Source of the DNA: Mesonia aestuariivivens
GTDB taxonomy: Bacteria; Bacteroidota; Bacteroidia; Flavobacteriales; Flavobacteriaceae
Reading direction: 5' to 3'
Assembly (NCBI RefSeq): GCF_019311235.1
Contig: NZ_JAHWDF010000010.1
Location: forward strand, 62,001 to 126,000
Length of the DNA stretch: 64,000 bases
Shown here in pieces: positions 784 to 54,317 of the stretch. The notes below the pieces were generated by a model. That model made no database searches and was not told the DNA's origin. It saw nothing but the letters and a program-made list of their open reading frames with translations. A program made the position numbers and the translations under genes. The stretch's first letter is position 1, and each line of letters starts with the position of its first letter.

Positions 784-1416
784 ATGGACTTATTTATCTA
801 TGTTTTTGCCGCATTATTTTCTGTAATCAATCCGTTAGGCACAGTTCCTATTTTTGTAGGACTCACCAAAGAAGATAGTAATGCAGAAAAATCTCGAACT
901 TCAATTTTTACCGCTATTAATATTTTTGTGATTTTAGTGATTGCCTTTTTTACTGGAAAATACATTCTCAATTTCTTCGGAATTAGTATTGAATCGCTCC
1001 GTATCGCTGGCGGACTTATTATTGTTTCTTCAGGCTTTGCATTACTTACAGGCTCCTTCAATAAACATAAAGGTATGGATCGTGAAAAAGTAAAAGATGA
1101 CGCCTACCAAAGGGAAAGCGTATCTTTAACTCCACTAGCTATACCCATGTTAGCTGGGCCGGGTTCTATTTCATTTTTAATTGGTTTAAATGAAGAGCGT
1201 AACCTAATCTTAGATAAAATAATAATTGTATTATCAATTCTAACGGTATGTTTTGCTACTTTTTTAGTTTTGAAAAGCGCTCCCTTAATCGTAAAATATT
1301 TAGGCGCATCAGGTATCAATGCTATTTCACGAATTATAGGTTTTATCGTGATCGCTATTGGTATAGAATATATTAGCTCTTCGGTAATGGCAGTTTTAGA
1401 GGTAGCCTTTAGGTAA
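784..1416 (+). CDS. MarC family integral membrane protein
   Basis: This is a 210-residue membrane protein of the MarC/UPF0056 family, whose biochemical role is not settled; the old link to multiple antibiotic resistance has not held up. Six hydrophobic segments are visible. Family-like features are the N-terminal FSVINPLGTVPIFVGLT segment and the repeat-like PLAIPMLAGPGSISFLIGL segment in the second half, consistent with two inverted halves. I chose the ATG at 784 rather than a TTG five codons earlier because MDLFIYVF fits the family start. The gene stands alone on the plus strand. Confidence 0.85.
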   Translation: MDLFIYVFAALFSVINPLGTVPIFVGLTKEDSNAEKSRTSIFTAINIFVILVIAFFTGKYILNFFGISIESLRIAGGLIIVSSGFALLTGSFNKHKGMDREKVKDDAYQRESVSLTPLAIPMLAGPGSISFLIGLNEERNLILDKIIIVLSILTVCFATFLVLKSAPLIVKYLGASGINAISRIIGFIVIAIGIEYISSSVMAVLEVAFR

Positions 1417-30689: not shown

Positions 30690-33600
30690 ATGAAAACAAA
30701 GTTTAGTGGATTTTTAACGCTATTACTGGCGTTTGTCGTGCAAATTTCCTTTGCACAAGAAAAAACAATTACCGGTACGGTTACCGACAGTGAGGGATTA
30801 CCGTTACCTGGCGTAAATGTTATTATTGAGGGAACTTCAACAGGAACTCAATCAGATTTTGATGGAAATTACTCCATTAAAGCTGAAATTGGAGAAACCT
30901 TAACCTTTAGTTATGTTGGTTTTGCGAGACAAAATGTAGTAGTTTCAAGAAGAAACTCTTATGACATCGTGATGAATAAAGACTCTGAACTTGATGAAGT
31001 AGTAGTTACAGCGTACAGATCAACAACTAAAAAAAGAAGTAATCAAGCAGTCACTACGATTACTGCAGAAACCTTTGAAAACAGACCTAACGCGTCTCTT
31101 ATTCAGAGTATGCAGGGTCAAATACCTGGTCTTAACATATCAACTAGTAGCGGTCAACCTGGCGCAAACAGCCAGATCATTCTAAGAGGTGTTGGTTCTA
31201 TTAACGGAAATGTAGAACCACTAATGATTGTTGACGGCGTACCTGTAGATGAGGACAATTTCAGAAGTATAAATCCTAGCGATATAGAAAGCGTATCTGT
31301 TTTAAAAGATGCTGCTGCAACATCTATTTACGGTAATAGAGGTGCTAATGGTGTAATAATTATAAATACTAAAGCGGGGAAGTTTAATCAAAACTTATCG
31401 ATTAAATATTCAGCTCAGTATGGATTTGCTAAGCTTCAGAATCTTAATATTGATTTAATGAATTCTAGAGAAAAATTGACTTTTCAAAAATCTTTAGGGC
31501 AAGGATTAGGGGCTGATCTAAGTAATGCAGAAATTGATGCTTTATCTAGAACCACTAACACGTATTGGGAAGATTTCTTTTTTAGAACTGGCACAACCAA
31601 CAATCAAAATTTATCACTTTCTTCAGGTTCTGAGAACACTAACAACTACACCTCTATTGGTTATTTTGAGCAAGAAGGTACTTTTATTGCCTCGGATATT
31701 AAAAGGTTTAGTTTTAGAAATAAATTTACAGGGAAAAGTGAAAACGATAAATTGACTTATACAGCTAATGTGAGTGCTAATTTCTCTCGAAGTAACTATA
31801 GAGACGCAGAAGGTTCAAGAAATACATATTTCAACCCCTTTGCAGCAGCTATGACAAGCTTACCTTTCCTAAGTCCTTATGACACAAACGGAGAAGTAAC
31901 TAAAACGGGAGGTATTCCTTATGGTAGTATTAATGGAATAACTGCAGATCTAAAGCCATACATACTTTTAAATTCTGCTGCTTACAACACTGAATTAGAT
32001 GATGAAATTAAAATCATTGGTAATTTTAACGCTCAGTACAATTTCACTGAAAATTGGCACATAAGAAATTCATTCGGGATGGATTACACAGGTATTACCA
32101 AAAAACAAACTATAGACCCTAAAAGTCTTCTAGGTCCATTTCAAGCACAAAGTGGCGCTGAATTTGGCGGTTTAGAAAGAAATCGTTCTTGGCAAGATGT
32201 ATATTTCAACAACACACTTAACTTAGGTTATTCTACTATAATTAGCAAAAAACATTCTATCGATGTAAATCTATATACTGAGTATGTAAAACAACATAGA
32301 TACAGATTTGGGTTTGAGCAAAGAGGTTTAGATCCAAAATCATTAGGCAGTGGTAATGCTTTTGTTGATGGAACGACTGTAGAAACAATTAATGGAACAG
32401 AAGCAAGACCATATATTCCAACTATAAGCAAAACTAATTTAGAAACTGGATTATTTTCTTATTTTGCTACATTAGATTATGACTTTGACAATAAATATGG
32501 AATTGGTGCTAGTATTAGACGTGATGCATCTTCTAGATTTGAAGATGACTACAAATGGGGTACTTTTTATTCTGTTAGCGGTCGATGGAATATTGAAGAA
32601 GAATCATTTATGGAAGAATCTGCTTTCAATCTTTTAAAACTACGAGCATCTTATGGTACTGCAGGTAATCAAAGAATCATCGGTACCATGTTTGGAGGTT
32701 TAAATCTAACACAAAACTTATATGCATTTACTACAGGGTATAATAATACAAATGGATATGCACCATCTGTTATAGCAAACACCTCACTTAGATGGGAAAA
32801 AACTTCACAAGCTAATATTGGCCTAGATTTTGGATTATGGAATAACAAACTTTCAGGTAGTTTAGATGTTTATGAAAAGAAAACAACAGATTTATTTCAG
32901 GATAGACCTATATCTTTAATTAACGCAACAGAATCTATCCAAGCAAATATTGGATCAATGAGAAACAGAGGTGTTGAAGCTATATTTAACTACAGTATTT
33001 TAAATAATGATAACTGGAGACTTTCAATTAATGCAAATGGATCTTTCAATAAAAATGAAATCTTAGAATTAGCAGGCGCTAATGAAGAAGGTATTATTTT
33101 TGAAGGAGGGTCTACAGCTTTAGGGGAAGGAGAGGCTGTTGGGTCTTTTTACGTAGTTGATTATGTTGGAGTTAATCCTGCTAATGGTAACCCTTTATTT
33201 AAAGATGCTAATGGCAATCTAACCGAAACTTTACAAGATGCCGATAGAAGATTTTCAGATAAATCACAATACCCAACTTGGTCAGGAGGATTTGGAGCAC
33301 AAGTATCATATAAAAATTTCACATTGAGTAATCAGTGGGTGTTTTTTGCTGATGTATATAGAAATAACTTAGATTTATCAGACTTAGAAGCTAATTCAAG
33401 TATTGTAAACAGTAATAGTGCAACGTCACTTTTAAGTGCTTGGAAACAACCAGGTGATATTACCAGTATACCTAGAATGAACGGACAGTTTTCAGGTGTA
33501 GATTTCATCAATATATCAGATAGATATTTAGAAGATGCATCTTACCTTAGAATGAGAAATATTCAGTTAGCTTATAATTTTTCTCCTGAAATTTTAGAAA

Positions 33601-33761
33601 AAACACCTTTCACAGCATTAAATATATATGTTCAAGGAGAAAATCTTTTAACATTTAGCAAATGGAAAGGTTATGACCCACAAAGTGGATTCACAGACAC
33701 AGCTGCATCAAACTATCCTACTCCGAAAATTTACACCTTTGGATTAAATGTTAACTTCTAA
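30690..33761 (+). CDS. SusC/RagA family TonB-linked outer-membrane transporter
   Basis: This 1023-residue protein is the TonB-dependent barrel of a SusCD pair. After a signal peptide (MKTKFSGFLTLLLAFVVQIS, then FAQ) comes a carboxypeptidase-regulatory-like domain at about residues 24-105 (GTVTDSEGLPLPGVNVIIEG). A plug domain at about 115-235 carries ILRGVGSINGNVEPLMIVDG and LKDAAATSIYGNRGANGVII. The remainder is a beta-barrel ending in ...FGLNVNF. The substrate is not determined by sequence; the downstream subtilisin suggests peptides rather than glycans, and no glycosidase is nearby. SusD follows after 11 bases. Confidence 0.95.
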   Translation: MKTKFSGFLTLLLAFVVQISFAQEKTITGTVTDSEGLPLPGVNVIIEGTSTGTQSDFDGNYSIKAEIGETLTFSYVGFARQNVVVSRRNSYDIVMNKDSELDEVVVTAYRSTTKKRSNQAVTTITAETFENRPNASLIQSMQGQIPGLNISTSSGQPGANSQIILRGVGSINGNVEPLMIVDGVPVDEDNFRSINPSDIESVSVLKDAAATSIYGNRGANGVIIINTKAGKFNQNLSIKYSAQYGFAKLQNLNIDLMNSREKLTFQKSLGQGLGADLSNAEIDALSRTTNTYWEDFFFRTGTTNNQNLSLSSGSENTNNYTSIGYFEQEGTFIASDIKRFSFRNKFTGKSENDKLTYTANVSANFSRSNYRDAEGSRNTYFNPFAAAMTSLPFLSPYDTNGEVTKTGGIPYGSINGITADLKPYILLNSAAYNTELDDEIKIIGNFNAQYNFTENWHIRNSFGMDYTGITKKQTIDPKSLLGPFQAQSGAEFGGLERNRSWQDVYFNNTLNLGYSTIISKKHSIDVNLYTEYVKQHRYRFGFEQRGLDPKSLGSGNAFVDGTTVETINGTEARPYIPTISKTNLETGLFSYFATLDYDFDNKYGIGASIRRDASSRFEDDYKWGTFYSVSGRWNIEEESFMEESAFNLLKLRASYGTAGNQRIIGTMFGGLNLTQNLYAFTTGYNNTNGYAPSVIANTSLRWEKTSQANIGLDFGLWNNKLSGSLDVYEKKTTDLFQDRPISLINATESIQANIGSMRNRGVEAIFNYSILNNDNWRLSINANGSFNKNEILELAGANEEGIIFEGGSTALGEGEAVGSFYVVDYVGVNPANGNPLFKDANGNLTETLQDADRRFSDKSQYPTWSGGFGAQVSYKNFTLSNQWVFFADVYRNNLDLSDLEANSSIVNSNSATSLLSAWKQPGDITSIPRMNGQFSGVDFINISDRYLEDASYLRMRNIQLAYNFSPEILEKTPFTALNIYVQGENLLTFSKWKGYDPQSGFTDTAASNYPTPKIYTFGLNVNF

Positions 33762-47807: not shown

Positions 47808-50800
47808 ATGAAAAAAATCTACTTGGTAAGCATTATATGTTTTCTCTTTACACAAACGCATTTTGCACAACAAAGATTTGATAAGTGGTGGGAAGAAGTA
47901 GAAAACTTAGAGCTGGAAGGTAAATCTGACAATGCTTTTGAAAAAGCTCTAAAAATCAAACGAAAAGCTGACCGAAAAGAGAACCCTCAACAATTTCTAA
48001 AGGCTTTTTTATATGTCTCTAAGTATAAATTAATTCTGAAAAAAAATAGCCAAGAAGAAGTTTATAAAGATTTTCTAGATGAAATTGAATCTCAAAACAC
48101 ACCAAACCAACAGGTTCTTTATTCCTTTTTAGCTGAAAGTTTAAACGACTATTATAAAGAAAACCGTTACCGCATTAATAAACGTACTAAAATAGATACT
48201 GTTTCTAATGATTTCTTATCGTGGAGTAAAGATGACTTCGAAAATAAAGTGATGGGTTATTACCAAAAATCACTTCAACATGAAAAAAAACTTATTAAAA
48301 CTCCACTTAAAGATTTCACCGAAATATTGAAATACGGAGAAAATTATAATAATTACAGAAGCACGTTATACGATTTACTCGCTAATCGTTACTTCAGTTT
48401 TTTAAAGTATGAACATTATAACTCGCAACAAGAAGAAGTTTATTTTATAAAAGATTCTAGCTTTTTTTCTTCACCTGAAGACTTCATCTCTATAGATTTT
48501 TCTACTTATGAAGATAGAACGCATAAAATAGAAACACTTCAAATTTATCAAGATCTCACGCGATTACACCTTCAGCAAAAGGACTCTTTATCTTTAGTTA
48601 TGACTACGCTAGAACGATTTGAATATTTAAAAAATAAAGGTTCTTATTCCAATTCTGGAGAATTATTTAAAGAATCACTTCAAAACTTACTTAAAAGGAA
48701 AACTAGTAAAATTGGAAAAGCTTGGATAGCGTATAAACTAGCTCAATTCTATTATCAAAATGCTAACAAATACAAAACTCCAGATTACCTCGAAAAAAGT
48801 ATTTCGTTAATTAAAAATATTAAAAGCACGGTACCTAATTCAACACCAGGAATTGGGGCTCTTCAATTAGAAAAGGCTATTATTTCTTCTCAACTCAACA
48901 TTAAAACCAAGCAAAAACCGCTACCCAATCGTAAGTTTAGAGCCTTGGTAAATTTTAAAAATACTGATAGTTTATACCTAAATATTTATAAAATTTCTAG
49001 TCAAACAATTAAGCGAAAAATTAATGACACCGATTCTATCGTTAGAGATTTATATAAAAACGCAAAACCCTTTCAGCAACAACAATTTAAACTTCCCAAA
49101 ATTGAAAATCATTTCTCCTATTCTACCGAGCTTTTGCTAGATGAGTTACCTGTTGGAAATTATTTACTTTTATTTAACAAGTCTAAAAAGATAGATTTTA
49201 AAGAAGATAACTACCAATACCAAAACATACAAGTTACCAACCTTTCTTATACTAATTTTGATTTCAATGAAGATCAGCAATTATACATTACAGATAGAAC
49301 TACAGGAAAACCAATAAAAGATGTAAAAGTAATTTTAGATGACAAACCCTCTAAGATTTATTTTTCAGATGAAAATGGGTTATTAAAAATTCATTATTCA
49401 ACCAATAATTATTACCAAAGAAAGAAAATCACCCTAAATTATAAAGGAGATACCTTAAAATCTAACCTTAATTTTAGAAGAACGTATTCCTCTTCTGGTG
49501 ATCTTAATGAAAAAGAACCCGAAATACGTAGTTTTTTGCTTACCGATCGCGCTATTTACCGCCCAGGGCAAACCATTTATTTTAAAGGAATTCTCTCTTA
49601 CCAAAGTAAAAGCGAAAGAAAAGTGGTTCCTAGTGAGCGAGTTTATGTTGAATTATATGATGCTAATTACGATTTAGTTGATAGTTTAAGCCTTACTACA
49701 AATGAATTTGGTTCAGTACAGGGAGAGTTTAAAATTCCTAAAAGTGTATTGACAGGGAATTTTAAATTAAAATTAGAAGAAAATTTTCAAGAAGATTCAT
49801 ATTACACAGATTTTTACTTTAACAACACCTATAAAAACATTCAAGTTGAAGAATACAAACGGCCTAAATTTGAAGTTGAATTCAAAGACATCGATTCAAC
49901 ATATGTTGTTAATGATTCTATTCAACTGAAAGGAATATCGAAAGCGTTTTTTGGCGGCAATATTACCAATGCTAGAGTTAGTTATACCATAGATAGGCAA
50001 CAAGATTATAATTATTGGTACAGCTACCAATACAATCGTTCAGCAGAGCGAATAGCAACTGGTAAAACAACAACCGACGAGAAAGGGAATTTTGAGACTG
50101 ATTTTAAAGCTATTCCAAATAAAGCTATAGATTCTACAACAACACCTATTTTTACTTATAAAATTGAGGCTACTGTAACAGATATTAATGGAGAAACGCA
50201 AACTGCAGAACAAAGTATTCGAATAGGCTATCACGCTACAGAAATTCATATTCAATCGCCACATCAACCTATAATTGGAGAAAAGCGAGAATTAAAAATA
50301 TTAGCTAAAGATTTAAACAATTTAGCTTCTAAAGCTGAAGGCGAACTCAAGATTTACAAATACATAAAACCCGATCGCATTCTGGTAAATAGAAGTTGGA
50401 TGGCTCCAGAAATTCAGCAAATACCTAAAGAAGAATTTATAAAACATTTTCCCTATACGGTTTATGACAGCTTAGATCTAAAAGAAAATTGGCCTAAAAA
50501 ACTCATCACAACAATTCCTCTAGAGATTGATTCTGTTGCAACAATTCAACTAGATAATTATAGTGAAGACTTAAAAACCGGAGAATACTATTTAAAATTT
50601 AAAGGAATAGGAAAATTAGGTTTTAAAGTTGAAGCTTCTAAAGCTTTGAAAATAAACAACCCTAACGACAAGCTAGATCAAAAAGAAAAAGAATTTATTA
50701 GTTACACTTACGATTTAAAAGAAACCAACGAAAATCATACAGTCACGCTGCATTTCACCTCTTCGCTAGATAGCTTACCTCTGCTTCTAAATATCGCATT

Positions 50801-53800
50801 TGACGATCAGCTTGTCGAACAAAAAAACATTCAACTCAACAAGTGTGAAAATTCAATAAGTTATGTGATTCCTAATAAAACTGAAAATGTTCATTTAGAA
50901 TATACGTTTAATCAGCTAGGATATTATTTCACAAAAAAAGAAAGTATTGGTATTCCACAACCAGAAGAGATTAATAAAAATCTTGAATTTGAAGTAATCT
51001 CTTTCAAAAACAAACTCGAACCTGGCAAACAAGAAACTTGGCAATTAAAAGTGATCGATCACGAGAAAAAACCAGCAAATGCCGAAGTTTTAGCCAGTAT
51101 GTACGATGCTTCTTTAGATGAATTTGTTTCTCATAATTGGCACGCCCAGCTTTATAAAAAACCTTATTCCTATAAAAATAATGGTTTGCCAAATTCATCT
51201 ATACAAATTAATAATTTTTACAGCATCAATTTTATTAATCAAAACTACAATCAATCCAATTATTACAGCTATCCCATAAGGTATTCAGTATTTAAAAATT
51301 TCGGGTATAGCTTTATCAACGCTATAAATACCAATAAATTATTCCTCAATTATTTAGTCATAGAGACTGAAAATAAAGAACACAAAAAAGGTTATATAAA
51401 CGGTACAGTTCTAGACGAACAAGGCATTCCAATTCCTGCGGCTAACGTAATTATTAAAGGAACTACAACTGGCACTACCACCAATTTTGATGGAAATTAT
51501 TCAATTAAAGCCAATGAAAATGATTTCTTAGTTATTAGTGCTTTAGGTTTTAGCAGTGTAGAAAAAAGAGCTGACCAAACGAAATTAATTATCTTAAAAG
51601 CAGATAGTGCAAACCTAGATGAAGTTGTTATTACTGGTTTTGACAATTCAGAAAAACGTTTATTTACCGGCGCAAATTCAACGATTAGTGAAGAAGATAA
51701 TTATTACAGAGGAAATGTTTATCAAAAACTATTCACAGAAAGTTCAGGAGTTGAAAGCACAAACGATTCTCATTATTTTTATTCTAAAAGGATAACTCTA
51801 AGAGGAGTTGGCTCTATTGATGGAAATGCAGAACCATTATATGTGATAGATGGAGTTCCTATTTCTGAGAATGAGTTCAAAGAATTAGCAACCCAAAATA
51901 TTACATCTATAAAAGTACTTAAAGACGCAAGCGCAACTGCTTTATACGGGTCTAGAGCTGCTAACGGAGTCATAATTATCACGACTAAAGCTGCGGAAGA
52001 AGAATTGCAACAGATAGAAACCCGAACTAATTTAAAGGAAACTGCCTTTTTCTTTCCGCAGTTAAAAACCAATAAAAAAGGAGAAGTAATTTTTGAGTTT
52101 GAAACTCCGGAGGCTTTAACCCGTTGGAATTTTCAAGCCTTTGCGCACGATAAAAACTTACACCAAGCAAAACTTGACTTAACCACCATCACGCAAAAAG
52201 ACCTCAACATTATTCCTAATTTCCCGCGTTTTTTTAGAAGTAAAGACACGGTAATTATTTCTGCAAAAGTCAATAATTTATCGAAAAAGGTGCTTACTGG
52301 TGTAATTCAATTAGAATTTACCGATGAAGTAACACAGCAAAAAATTAAATTGGTTGCTGACAAAAATTCAATTAAAAACTTCCGTATGATGCCTAAAGGA
52401 AATACGGAAGTAAGCTGGAAATTAGTCATCCCAGAAAATCTATTAGCAGTTCGTTACCGCATTGTTGCCAAAGCTGGAAACTTTTCTGACGGAGAAGAAA
52501 ATATCATTCCCGTATTATCTAACCGAATTTTCATCACAGAAACACTTCCTATTTGGGTGAATCCGAATGAAAAGAAAGGTGTAACTTTTAACAACTTAAA
52601 AAATAATAATTCAACTACACTTAAAAACCATCAATTGGTATTTGAATACACTTCGAACCCAGCTTGGACGAGCTTGCAAGCACTTCCGTATTTAATTGAA
52701 TATCCTTACGATTGTGCCGAGCAAACCTTTGCTAAGGTTTACGCCAATTATATAACTACAGTTATTTTAGAGAAAAATCCTGAGATTAAAAAAACACTTC
52801 AGCAATGGAAAGAAAATAAAACTGAGCTCTCTGCATTCAACAAAAATGAAGAGTTAAAGCAAATAGCCTTACAAGAAACCCCTTGGCTTAAGGATACAGA
52901 AAGTGAAGAAGAACAGCAAAAACGCTTGGCACAACTGCTCGATATTCAAGAGACAAAAATGAGAACTCAGCAAGCTTTTACTAAACTTTCAGCACTTCAA
53001 CTAAGTTCTGGAGCTTTTCCTTGGTTTAATGGTGGTCGAGCTAATCGCTCTATCTCCTTACATCTTTTAAAAGGAATGGGAAGATTACTCAGCATTTCAC
53101 CTGAATTAGAAAAAAATGAAACTTTCGATGATATCACCACCAATCTTATTATCTATTTAGATAATGAATTTTTAAAGAATGATCGATTCAAGGAAACTGA
53201 TAGCTTTAATACCTCTGAAATAAATTACATCTATGCTAGAAGCTTTTTCTATGGATTTAAAGATGAAAATTTCGAGACTTACAAAGAAAAATTATTTTCA
53301 GAAATAGAAAAAAATTGGATAACACTACCTATACAAACTAAAATGACGCTAGCCGTAATTGCACAGCGTTACGAGAAGAAAAAATTAGCCCGCACTATGT
53401 TAGAATCACTTAAAGAAAATGCAGTTATCGATTCTGAATACGGGATGTATTGGAAAGAAGTTGTAAGCAGCAGGTATTGGTACAACGCTCCAATCGCTAC
53501 TCAAACTTTAGCTATTGAAGCATTTGCAGAAATAGATAAAGACCAAGAAACGATTAATCAATTAAAAACTTGGCTGCTTCGAAATAAAAAAACCGAAGCT
53601 TGGAAATCTACCAAAGCGACTACCGAAGCGATTTATGCATTAATGATTCAGGGAGACCAAGAATTTATAAATGCTAAAATGCCTAAAATGCCTAAAATTA
53701 AAATTGGTAATGAAAAACTAAACTTAGAAACTGAAGGTAAAGCGGGTTATGTAAAGAAATCTTTTCCTGCGGAAAAAATTACAGCAGAAATAGCTAATAT

Positions 53801-54317
53801 AGAAATTAAAAACAATTCTGCATCACCACAATATGGCGCTTATTATTGGCAGTATTTTGAAGAATCAGATCAAGTGCAAGGCAATAACCAACAAGAACTT
53901 TCTATTCAAAAAGAAATCTTTAAAAAAGAAGAAAGTAATAAAGGTTCAACTTTAATTCCTTTAAATAAAAGCAACTTAAAAATTGGCGATTTAGTTACCG
54001 TAAGATTAATTATTAAAGCAGAAGAAAAATTCAGCTTTATGCATTTAAAAGATATGCGTGCTGCAGGTTTAGAACCTATCGATGTGATTTCTGCCTACAA
54101 ATGGCAAGATGGTTTAGGTTATTACCAAAGTACCAAAGATGTAGCCACTCACTTTTTCTTTGATGAAATTAGTAAAGGAACTTATGTTTTTGAATATGAT
54201 TTGAGAGTAAATAACCCAGGGAATTTCTCTAACGGAATCACGCAGTTGCAAAGTATGTACGCACCAGAATTTAAAGTTCAATCTAAAGGAAGTAGAATAG
54301 AATTAATTAAGCAGTAA
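47808..54317 (+). CDS. Alpha-2-macroglobulin with inserted CarboxypepD-reg-like and TonB plug domains
   Basis: This 2169-residue exported protein starts at the ATG at 47808 with a signal peptide (MKKIYLVSIICFLFTQTHFA). Macroglobulin domains include an MG2-type segment near residues 575-670 (LLTDRAIYRPGQTIYFKGIL). At about 1195-1290 there is a carboxypeptidase-regulatory-like domain (GTVLDEQGIPIPAANVIIKG), and to about 1400 a TonB plug (TLRGVGSIDGNAEPLYVIDG, LKDASATALYGSRAANGVII). The A2M domain resumes at 1405 (ALTRWNFQAFAHDK). The thioester motif CAEQ is at Cys1636 in YPYDCAEQTFAKV, followed by a helical thioester domain. Bacterial A2Ms trap proteases; the plug's role is unknown. A terminator follows. 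Confidence 0.92.
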   Translation: MKKIYLVSIICFLFTQTHFAQQRFDKWWEEVENLELEGKSDNAFEKALKIKRKADRKENPQQFLKAFLYVSKYKLILKKNSQEEVYKDFLDEIESQNTPNQQVLYSFLAESLNDYYKENRYRINKRTKIDTVSNDFLSWSKDDFENKVMGYYQKSLQHEKKLIKTPLKDFTEILKYGENYNNYRSTLYDLLANRYFSFLKYEHYNSQQEEVYFIKDSSFFSSPEDFISIDFSTYEDRTHKIETLQIYQDLTRLHLQQKDSLSLVMTTLERFEYLKNKGSYSNSGELFKESLQNLLKRKTSKIGKAWIAYKLAQFYYQNANKYKTPDYLEKSISLIKNIKSTVPNSTPGIGALQLEKAIISSQLNIKTKQKPLPNRKFRALVNFKNTDSLYLNIYKISSQTIKRKINDTDSIVRDLYKNAKPFQQQQFKLPKIENHFSYSTELLLDELPVGNYLLLFNKSKKIDFKEDNYQYQNIQVTNLSYTNFDFNEDQQLYITDRTTGKPIKDVKVILDDKPSKIYFSDENGLLKIHYSTNNYYQRKKITLNYKGDTLKSNLNFRRTYSSSGDLNEKEPEIRSFLLTDRAIYRPGQTIYFKGILSYQSKSERKVVPSERVYVELYDANYDLVDSLSLTTNEFGSVQGEFKIPKSVLTGNFKLKLEENFQEDSYYTDFYFNNTYKNIQVEEYKRPKFEVEFKDIDSTYVVNDSIQLKGISKAFFGGNITNARVSYTIDRQQDYNYWYSYQYNRSAERIATGKTTTDEKGNFETDFKAIPNKAIDSTTTPIFTYKIEATVTDINGETQTAEQSIRIGYHATEIHIQSPHQPIIGEKRELKILAKDLNNLASKAEGELKIYKYIKPDRILVNRSWMAPEIQQIPKEEFIKHFPYTVYDSLDLKENWPKKLITTIPLEIDSVATIQLDNYSEDLKTGEYYLKFKGIGKLGFKVEASKALKINNPNDKLDQKEKEFISYTYDLKETNENHTVTLHFTSSLDSLPLLLNIAFDDQLVEQKNIQLNKCENSISYVIPNKTENVHLEYTFNQLGYYFTKKESIGIPQPEEINKNLEFEVISFKNKLEPGKQETWQLKVIDHEKKPANAEVLASMYDASLDEFVSHNWHAQLYKKPYSYKNNGLPNSSIQINNFYSINFINQNYNQSNYYSYPIRYSVFKNFGYSFINAINTNKLFLNYLVIETENKEHKKGYINGTVLDEQGIPIPAANVIIKGTTTGTTTNFDGNYSIKANENDFLVISALGFSSVEKRADQTKLIILKADSANLDEVVITGFDNSEKRLFTGANSTISEEDNYYRGNVYQKLFTESSGVESTNDSHYFYSKRITLRGVGSIDGNAEPLYVIDGVPISENEFKELATQNITSIKVLKDASATALYGSRAANGVIIITTKAAEEELQQIETRTNLKETAFFFPQLKTNKKGEVIFEFETPEALTRWNFQAFAHDKNLHQAKLDLTTITQKDLNIIPNFPRFFRSKDTVIISAKVNNLSKKVLTGVIQLEFTDEVTQQKIKLVADKNSIKNFRMMPKGNTEVSWKLVIPENLLAVRYRIVAKAGNFSDGEENIIPVLSNRIFITETLPIWVNPNEKKGVTFNNLKNNNSTTLKNHQLVFEYTSNPAWTSLQALPYLIEYPYDCAEQTFAKVYANYITTVILEKNPEIKKTLQQWKENKTELSAFNKNEELKQIALQETPWLKDTESEEEQQKRLAQLLDIQETKMRTQQAFTKLSALQLSSGAFPWFNGGRANRSISLHLLKGMGRLLSISPELEKNETFDDITTNLIIYLDNEFLKNDRFKETDSFNTSEINYIYARSFFYGFKDENFETYKEKLFSEIEKNWITLPIQTKMTLAVIAQRYEKKKLARTMLESLKENAVIDSEYGMYWKEVVSSRYWYNAPIATQTLAIEAFAEIDKDQETINQLKTWLLRNKKTEAWKSTKATTEAIYALMIQGDQEFINAKMPKMPKIKIGNEKLNLETEGKAGYVKKSFPAEKITAEIANIEIKNNSASPQYGAYYWQYFEESDQVQGNNQQELSIQKEIFKKEESNKGSTLIPLNKSNLKIGDLVTVRLIIKAEEKFSFMHLKDMRAAGLEPIDVISAYKWQDGLGYYQSTKDVATHFFFDEISKGTYVFEYDLRVNNPGNFSNGITQLQSMYAPEFKVQSKGSRIELIKQ

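Follow-up and report, generated by a model that had tools for sequence, protein, structure and literature searches.

A SusC-type module in the bait region of a Mesonia alpha-2-macroglobulin, and a possible origin of such baits from envelope proteins of the same cell

Why should a protease-trapping protein carry the front part of a transporter? The question is raised by a gene in a stretch of 64,000 nucleotides from Mesonia aestuariivivens (assembly GCF_019311235.1, contig NZ_JAHWDF010000010.1, positions 62,001 to 126,000), here called the window. Its product, P0001, is a thioester-type bacterial alpha-2-macroglobulin (A2M) that holds the N-terminal module of a SusC-type protein without the barrel. 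In macroglobulins the bait region is the stretch that is cut by many proteases, and we found that the SusC-type module occupies this region. We regard the chances as about even that periplasm-exposed envelope proteins of the same cell repeatedly supply the material from which the bait is rebuilt, and that the bait acts as a decoy for proteases attacking those proteins.

An earlier note on this DNA had read the gene as macroglobulin domains, a regulatory domain and a TonB plug, followed by the A2M domain and a CAEQ thioester. Pfam and NCBIfam profiles confirmed this succession and, in agreement with the note, matched no beta-barrel. PF01835, PF00207 and PF17973 all score above their cut-offs, as in a type I bacterial A2M, and the cysteine, glutamate and glutamine of the CxEQ motif are invariant in all 14 aligned A2M halves, which at the level of sequence points to a thioester. 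A join of two genes during assembly was rejected because genes of the same architecture stand in many genomes. Among 60 genomes searched, 12 further ones hold a single match to P0001 reaching to within about 10 residues of either end, eight of them from the same genus (G001, G002, G003, G005, G006, G007, G009 and G015; G and L numbers are our handles for genomes and loci) and four from other genera (G017, G021, G025 and G029).

The match to TIGR04056 (SusC/RagA) extends over residues 1197-1410 at 2.6e-66 and covers positions 3-220 of the 981 in the profile. With 224.7 bits against a family cut-off of 368.25, and lacking the barrel, P0001 is not itself a member of that family. The N-terminal extension (NTE), Ton box, plug and SusC signature are all present in the order known from SusC. 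In an AlphaFold2 model of residues 571-1545 (mean predicted local distance difference test score, pLDDT, 79.5) two parts of the module are confidently predicted: the regulatory domain, with block means of 82-93 over about residues 1201-1260, and the C-terminal half of the plug, with 76-86 over about residues 1341-1400. Over residues 1271-1300, the region of the Ton box, pLDDT is about 30. The NTE matches the solved NTE of a SusC, 9hfj, with a template modelling (TM) score of 0.82 on the target. The plug had been called complete in the earlier note; the PF07715 match comprises positions 27-107 of 107, leaving the first 26 unmatched, and residues 1301-1340 are modelled with a pLDDT of about 50-70.

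We determined the place of the insert by comparison with the A2M of E. coli (ECAM). In the cleaved protein bait residues 923-942 are without electron density (PMC4498604). In the translated yfhM gene this bait sits between SAVDSGVL (897) and VNHVNIVV (962), and the insert of P0001 sits between the corresponding anchors MYDASLD (1098) and RTNLxETAFF (1406). Distant Bacteroidota A2Ms (L342, L343 and L346-L348) share both anchors around a short, glycine-rich bait. MAFFT placed the right anchor correctly and misplaced the left one, which was matched by eye; hhalign failed to align nine orthologs with the single ECAM sequence. The best PDB match of the AlphaFold2 model is ECAM itself (5a42, E 3e-27, TM 0.34 on the query). 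Since the anchors are shared via the intermediate A2Ms and the fold matches ECAM, we place the module in the bait region.

The architecture recurs: A2Ms with a SusC-type module were found across Flavobacteriaceae and beyond. In the genus Mesonia, the A2M half is strongly matched in 11 of 16 genomes; one further genome has only a weak match to a distant A2M, and four have none. At 1e-3, and with weak hits on distant A2Ms counted, matches were found in 235 of 397 genomes of the family; for the phylum sample the figure is 95 of 296. In G012 (L230 / L052) the Mesonia gene is broken into several open pieces.

Anchored inserts range from 48 to 281 amino acids (aa). The 266 distinct ones comprise 158 shorter than 112 aa, 61 of 112-199 aa and 47 of at least 200 aa, and 127 of the 266 match SusC at 1e-3. 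Among inserts of at least 100 aa, TIGR04056 was detected in 104 of 116, CarbopepD_reg_2 in 85, Plug in 67 and GldJ in two; the set holds 116 of 121 such sequences, five A2Ms without the left anchor and with a short bait having been left out. Among the shorter inserts (150 of 153, leaving out L332, L334 and L335) TIGR04056 appears in 27 at 0.01 and GldJ in two, and two further families look like chance matches.

Some further observations on the inserts may be added. Short inserts such as L025, L087 and L082 carry plug shards in the order IRGxxS, (S)GRVAG-like, LDEVVVxGYG, which is the reverse of that in SusC. The insert of P0001 also resembles chain E of 9n2d (the beta-barrel assembly machinery, BAM, complex of F. 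johnsoniae), and the BamP family is matched by 61 of the 116 large inserts, probably via the common regulatory-domain fold. In other A2M groups (L219, L224, L225 and L336-L341) the baits contain domains of a regulatory-like (transthyretin-like) kind and no SusC plug. The bait inserts of L221 and L339 carry the motif EVxVxxERPxIxxSxTN, which we take to resemble the start of another type of TonB-dependent receptor and which would suggest acquisition from a non-SusC receptor.

Exchange with SusC genes is seen when close relatives are compared. The A2Ms of the Mesonia genomes G009 and G011 share 75-100% of residues in 60-residue blocks outside the insert and 50-63% inside it, with 77% in the block straddling the insert start and 98% in the block after the insert; the inside blocks are three, with 2, 51 and 60 aligned residues, and G011 lacks the regulatory domain. 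The module of G006 finds its best match outside its own A2M in a SusC of the same genome (73%), compared with 42% to the A2M module of G003, 40% to that of G002, 35% to that of G001 and at most 53% to any A2M module compared. A tract of 40 codons directly after its Ton box shares 90% of nucleotides and 90-100% of residues with this SusC; nucleotide identity in the remaining blocks of the module is 53-75%. The module of G002 shares 62% with its own SusC and 57% with the A2M modules of G000 and G009; the G003 module shares 63% with a SusC encoded in the same genome and 58% with the A2M module of G015.

In a tree of 14 A2M and 36 SusC modules (19 near-duplicates dropped of 69) the A2M rows need six changes, at least four of them forced by well-supported branches. 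A single clade of A2M modules was rejected by the approximately unbiased test (p 0.00093), and with it descent of these modules from one inherited plug; some rows are long-branched, and one SusC of G002 falls within an A2M group. Copying would have run from SusC to A2M, and the pieces of the bait appear to be renewed from the same genome at least in part. A SusC gene lies about 14 kb upstream of the A2M gene (window 30690-33761) and is a possible nearby donor; in G001, G003, G005, G011, G012 and G015, too, the contig with the A2M shows SusC matches about as far away.

SusC is not the only donor. Inserts matching GldJ were found at L083 (4.3e-10), at L165 (weak, 0.0091) and also at L301 and L180, and the GldJ genes of four genomes contain stretches corresponding to inserts. 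The GldJ-like decamer in the window's own insert is weak and does not come out as the best local match when compared with the GldJ of the same genome; it was given no weight. A whole-genome search with the L133 insert returned a protein of 924-935 aa in six of six genomes (8.7e-8 to 7.4e-4). The L204 insert returned proteins of 912-917 aa and of 266-271 aa in three of three genomes, together with many frames of SusC size. The large proteins are LptD (PF19838 at 6.7e-165 to 1.2e-177, three of three examined) and the small ones TonB (PF03544 at about 1e-11, three of three, above the Pfam TonB_C cut-off); NCBIfam tonB_Cterm scores the TonB genes at 24.0 and 24.4 bits, below its cut-off of 27.1. 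The shards correspond, in LptD, to sequence that precedes the LptD_2 domain or lies right at its beginning and, in TonB, to the linker preceding TonB_C.

At 1e-3 the 266 inserts gave eight matches to LptD, eight to TonB and three to GldJ, shuffled inserts none; the donor library held two LptD proteins that passed a motif filter, and the other LptD rows were compared separately. When other recurrent shards were looked for with a loose k-mer search, only noise came back. The nearest copy is often that of the same genome. With five TonBs compared for each of five inserts, the own one ranks first for L201, L226 and L101 and trails the leader by at most two score points for L204 and L203; with seven LptDs compared for each of seven inserts, the own one ranks first for L082, L199, L181, L204 and L095 (with a lead of only two points in L199 and L095) and not for L094 and L133. 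In two genomes of another family, L226 (G524) is 65% identical to the linker of its own TonB over 26 aa (4.6e-4), and for L222 (G507) the corresponding value is 59% over 27 aa (0.02). The comparison with own TonB linkers was run without a low-complexity filter; its weak matches of L320, L321, L322, L115, L212 and L244, which lie in proline-rich or acidic stretches, were not counted, and shuffled inserts gave zero matches here too. The search with the TonB C-terminal domain also returned frames with barrel-less SusC plug halves (L475 in G507 and L473 in G524), another place where plug halves are reused.

The four identified donors, SusC, GldJ, TonB and LptD, are all envelope proteins. In each case the matched stretch belongs to a part known to lie on the periplasmic side: the N-terminal part of LptD, the TonB linker, GldJ or the N-terminus of SusC. 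A decoy bait made from such parts accounts for the position of the insert, for the choice of donors and for renewal. In this lineage of Bacteroidota A2Ms in-frame copying, probably by gene conversion, would refresh the bait with the SusC NTE, Ton box and plug, the TonB linker, the N-terminal part of LptD, or GldJ, and the bait of P0001 would have been rebuilt from the SusC module. A protease that targets envelope proteins would find the same cleavage sites in the bait and cut it, the cut would spring the A2M, and the thioester would then bind the protease. The direction of copying, cleavage, trapping and the choice of donors as protease targets are inferred parts of this account. The more specific proposal of an updatable self-decoy collection, kept near the genome's current versions of SusC, TonB, LptD and GldJ and springing the trap on envelope-cutting proteases, falls somewhat short of an even chance.

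Several points weigh against a decoy bait. The A2M gene seems dispensable, since four of the 16 congeners lack a match and one has a distant A2M only. A folded domain is odd as a bait, the region being disordered in the E. coli A2M. Of the short inserts, 123 of 150 match neither SusC nor, save four, any other family, and two patterns for the plug's C-terminal half, present in 1 and 12 of 101 short inserts, do not exceed their shuffled means of 1.9 and 16.3. Shards from donors other than SusC are few in the counts given above, and a single event in Flavobacterium may lie behind all eight TonB cases. No recent donor turned up for the module of P0001: the SusCs of its own genome reach 46-48% over most of the module, and the A2M module of G002 reaches 57%. 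The whole-genome donor search covered six inserts or modules, so other donors may be missed. P0001 is exported and probably periplasmic, as judged from a signal peptide without lipobox. A broad lipobox pattern was found neither in P0001 nor in 72 of 73 full-length named relatives, L307 being the sole one whose N-terminus fits. Likeness through a regulatory domain alone does not prove copying, because flanking frames match through such domains as well: 105 of the 266 inserts match 19 of 779 flanking open frames at 1e-3, nearly all in this way (one frame is an A2M itself and about three look like chance), shuffled inserts giving two matches at 0.05.

The strongest competitor, which we nevertheless hold to be unlikely, is a neutral history, in which the bait tolerates nearly any in-frame sequence, receives pieces by ectopic gene conversion, chiefly from SusC, and then drifts and erodes without selection. 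It agrees with a hypervariable insert of eroded shards in scrambled order and with a gene that is absent or broken in some congeners. Likely donors are also many, one module yielding 30-44 matches per genome, regulatory-domain proteins among them. Four donors from the envelope, with shards from parts held to face the periplasm, are less expected under this explanation, and the LptD and TonB shards emerged from unbiased whole-genome searches; a need for export-compatible sequence could still bias the donors. Short inserts moreover keep SusC patterns far above shuffles. Among 101 unique ones, taken from an earlier set, the strict Ton-box pattern occurs in 15, the core one in 28 and the loose one in 55, with shuffled means of 0.0, 0.2 and 4.8, and the IRG and GxxxGV patterns occur in 36 and 42, with means of 7.4 and 6.3.

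The same kind of module was also found in a separate A2M clade, which again speaks against a purely neutral origin. L344 and L345, A2Ms of about 1950 and 2000 aa with 29% identity to the window's A2M half in a partial match, hold the whole module by TIGR04056 at the same bait place (1.4e-64 and 1.6e-55), and their genomes (G548 and G654) additionally hold an A2M copy of the main kind. The clade has a Shimodaira-Hasegawa-like approximate likelihood ratio support of 97, from 91 columns and a quick search with long-branch warnings for both. Neutral conversion thus accounts for the variability and less well for the donor choice.

The earlier note had suggested that the plug lets the protein dock on TonB or on a transporter. 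Its module is real and recurrent and has a Ton-box motif. The Ton box of Bt1763 is 82-DEVVVTG-88, established by mutation; mutating it impairs growth on levan to about the same degree as deleting SusD, and the segment, which follows the NTE, is flexible (PMC7782687). LDEVVITG in P0001 lies in a stretch of low pLDDT, like that flexible Ton box, and by its likeness makes binding of TonB possible; the loose Ton-box pattern is the commonest of those counted in short inserts (55 of 101). We consider it improbable that the Ton box and module serve to bind TonB or to sit at SusC transporters, and equally improbable the variants in which the trap is placed where proteases or protein substrates enter or in which TonB pulls on the bait. 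Many inserts have no Ton box, and in many cases only part of the plug is present; where shards of GldJ, LptD or the TonB linker occupy this place, no docking on TonB through a Ton box would be expected. The position is that of the bait, and the module is swapped or eroded between close relatives, with 158 of 266 inserts below 112 aa. Docking explains the Ton box only and leaves the bait position, the swapping and the other pieces unexplained. Still less probable is control of an endogenous envelope protease, the bait sites mimicking substrates of the cell's own quality-control protease so that the A2M traps it when overactive: the shards do resemble self proteins from that compartment, and in many cases the copy in the same genome comes closest, but the present data do not separate an own from a foreign protease, and no search for a protease linked to the locus was made.

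Table 1. Features of the A2M gene and of P0001 in the window
Feature	Residues	Window coordinates	Strand	Evidence
A2M gene with SusC-type insert, 2169 aa		47808..54317 (including stop)	+	single open frame, Pfam, NCBIfam
Predicted signal peptide, without lipobox	about 1-21	47808..47870	+	by eye; cleavage site not tool-predicted
MG2 macroglobulin domain	575-665	49530..49802	+	PF01835, 8.1e-17
Insert at bait-region position	1167-1403	51306..52016	+	alignment anchors, ECAM comparison, ECAM fold match
SusC-type N-terminal extension (CarbopepD_reg_2)	1197-1275	51396..51632	+	PF13715, 3e-17; pLDDT; 9hfj match
Ton-box-like motif LDEVVITG	1270-1277	51615..51638	+	likeness to Bt1763 Ton box DEVVVTG
GldJ-like decamer NYYRGNVYQK	1298-1307	51699..51728	+	weak; 9/10 identical to G185 GldJ
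TonB-dependent receptor plug	1307-1388	51726..51971	+	PF07715, 1.5e-11
SusC signature, mostly within plug	1365-1394		+	TIGR04057, 1.1e-16
A2M domain	1412-1501	52041..52310	+	PF00207
Thioester motif CAEQ	1636-1639	52713..52724	+	motif
bMG10 C-terminal macroglobulin domain	2031-2154	53898..54269	+	PF17973, 1.9e-32

The sequence of the insert tells the origin of the bait. If its pieces are decoys, they reveal which targets are under attack in the Bacteroidota periplasm, and the question of what bacterial A2Ms guard against becomes directly testable. A decoy bait would also mean that exchange with a large family of transporters diversifies a defence gene, a parallel to the decoy strategies of plant immunity. 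Nothing of this kind is described among the best-ranked 10-25 papers of each literature search, and a description could exist beyond them.

Among known systems, the A2Ms of E. coli and Salmonella (YfhM/ECAM and SaA2M) share with P0001 the MG2 and A2M domains, the thioester CxEQ, the C-terminal macroglobulin domains and a bait between the same anchors, and their structures 5a42 and 4u48 are ranks 1 and 6 of the fold matches. The anchors are about 65 residues apart in the E. coli protein and about 300 in P0001 with its SusC module. ECAM is described as anchored in the inner membrane (PMC4498604), whereas P0001 has no lipobox for the lipoprotein anchor of the E. coli type. SusC/RagA transporters (Bt1763 and relatives) have the NTE, Ton box, plug and signature in common with P0001, which lacks their barrel. 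The L475 and L473 proteins resemble P0001 in their barrel-less plug halves but are not A2Ms. Plant immune receptors with integrated decoys are defence proteins with a built-in copy of one of the plant's own proteins that is a target of attackers. Compared with these, P0001 and its relatives would be bacterial protease traps with a putative decoy function, drawing on several donors, with copies renewed by exchange.

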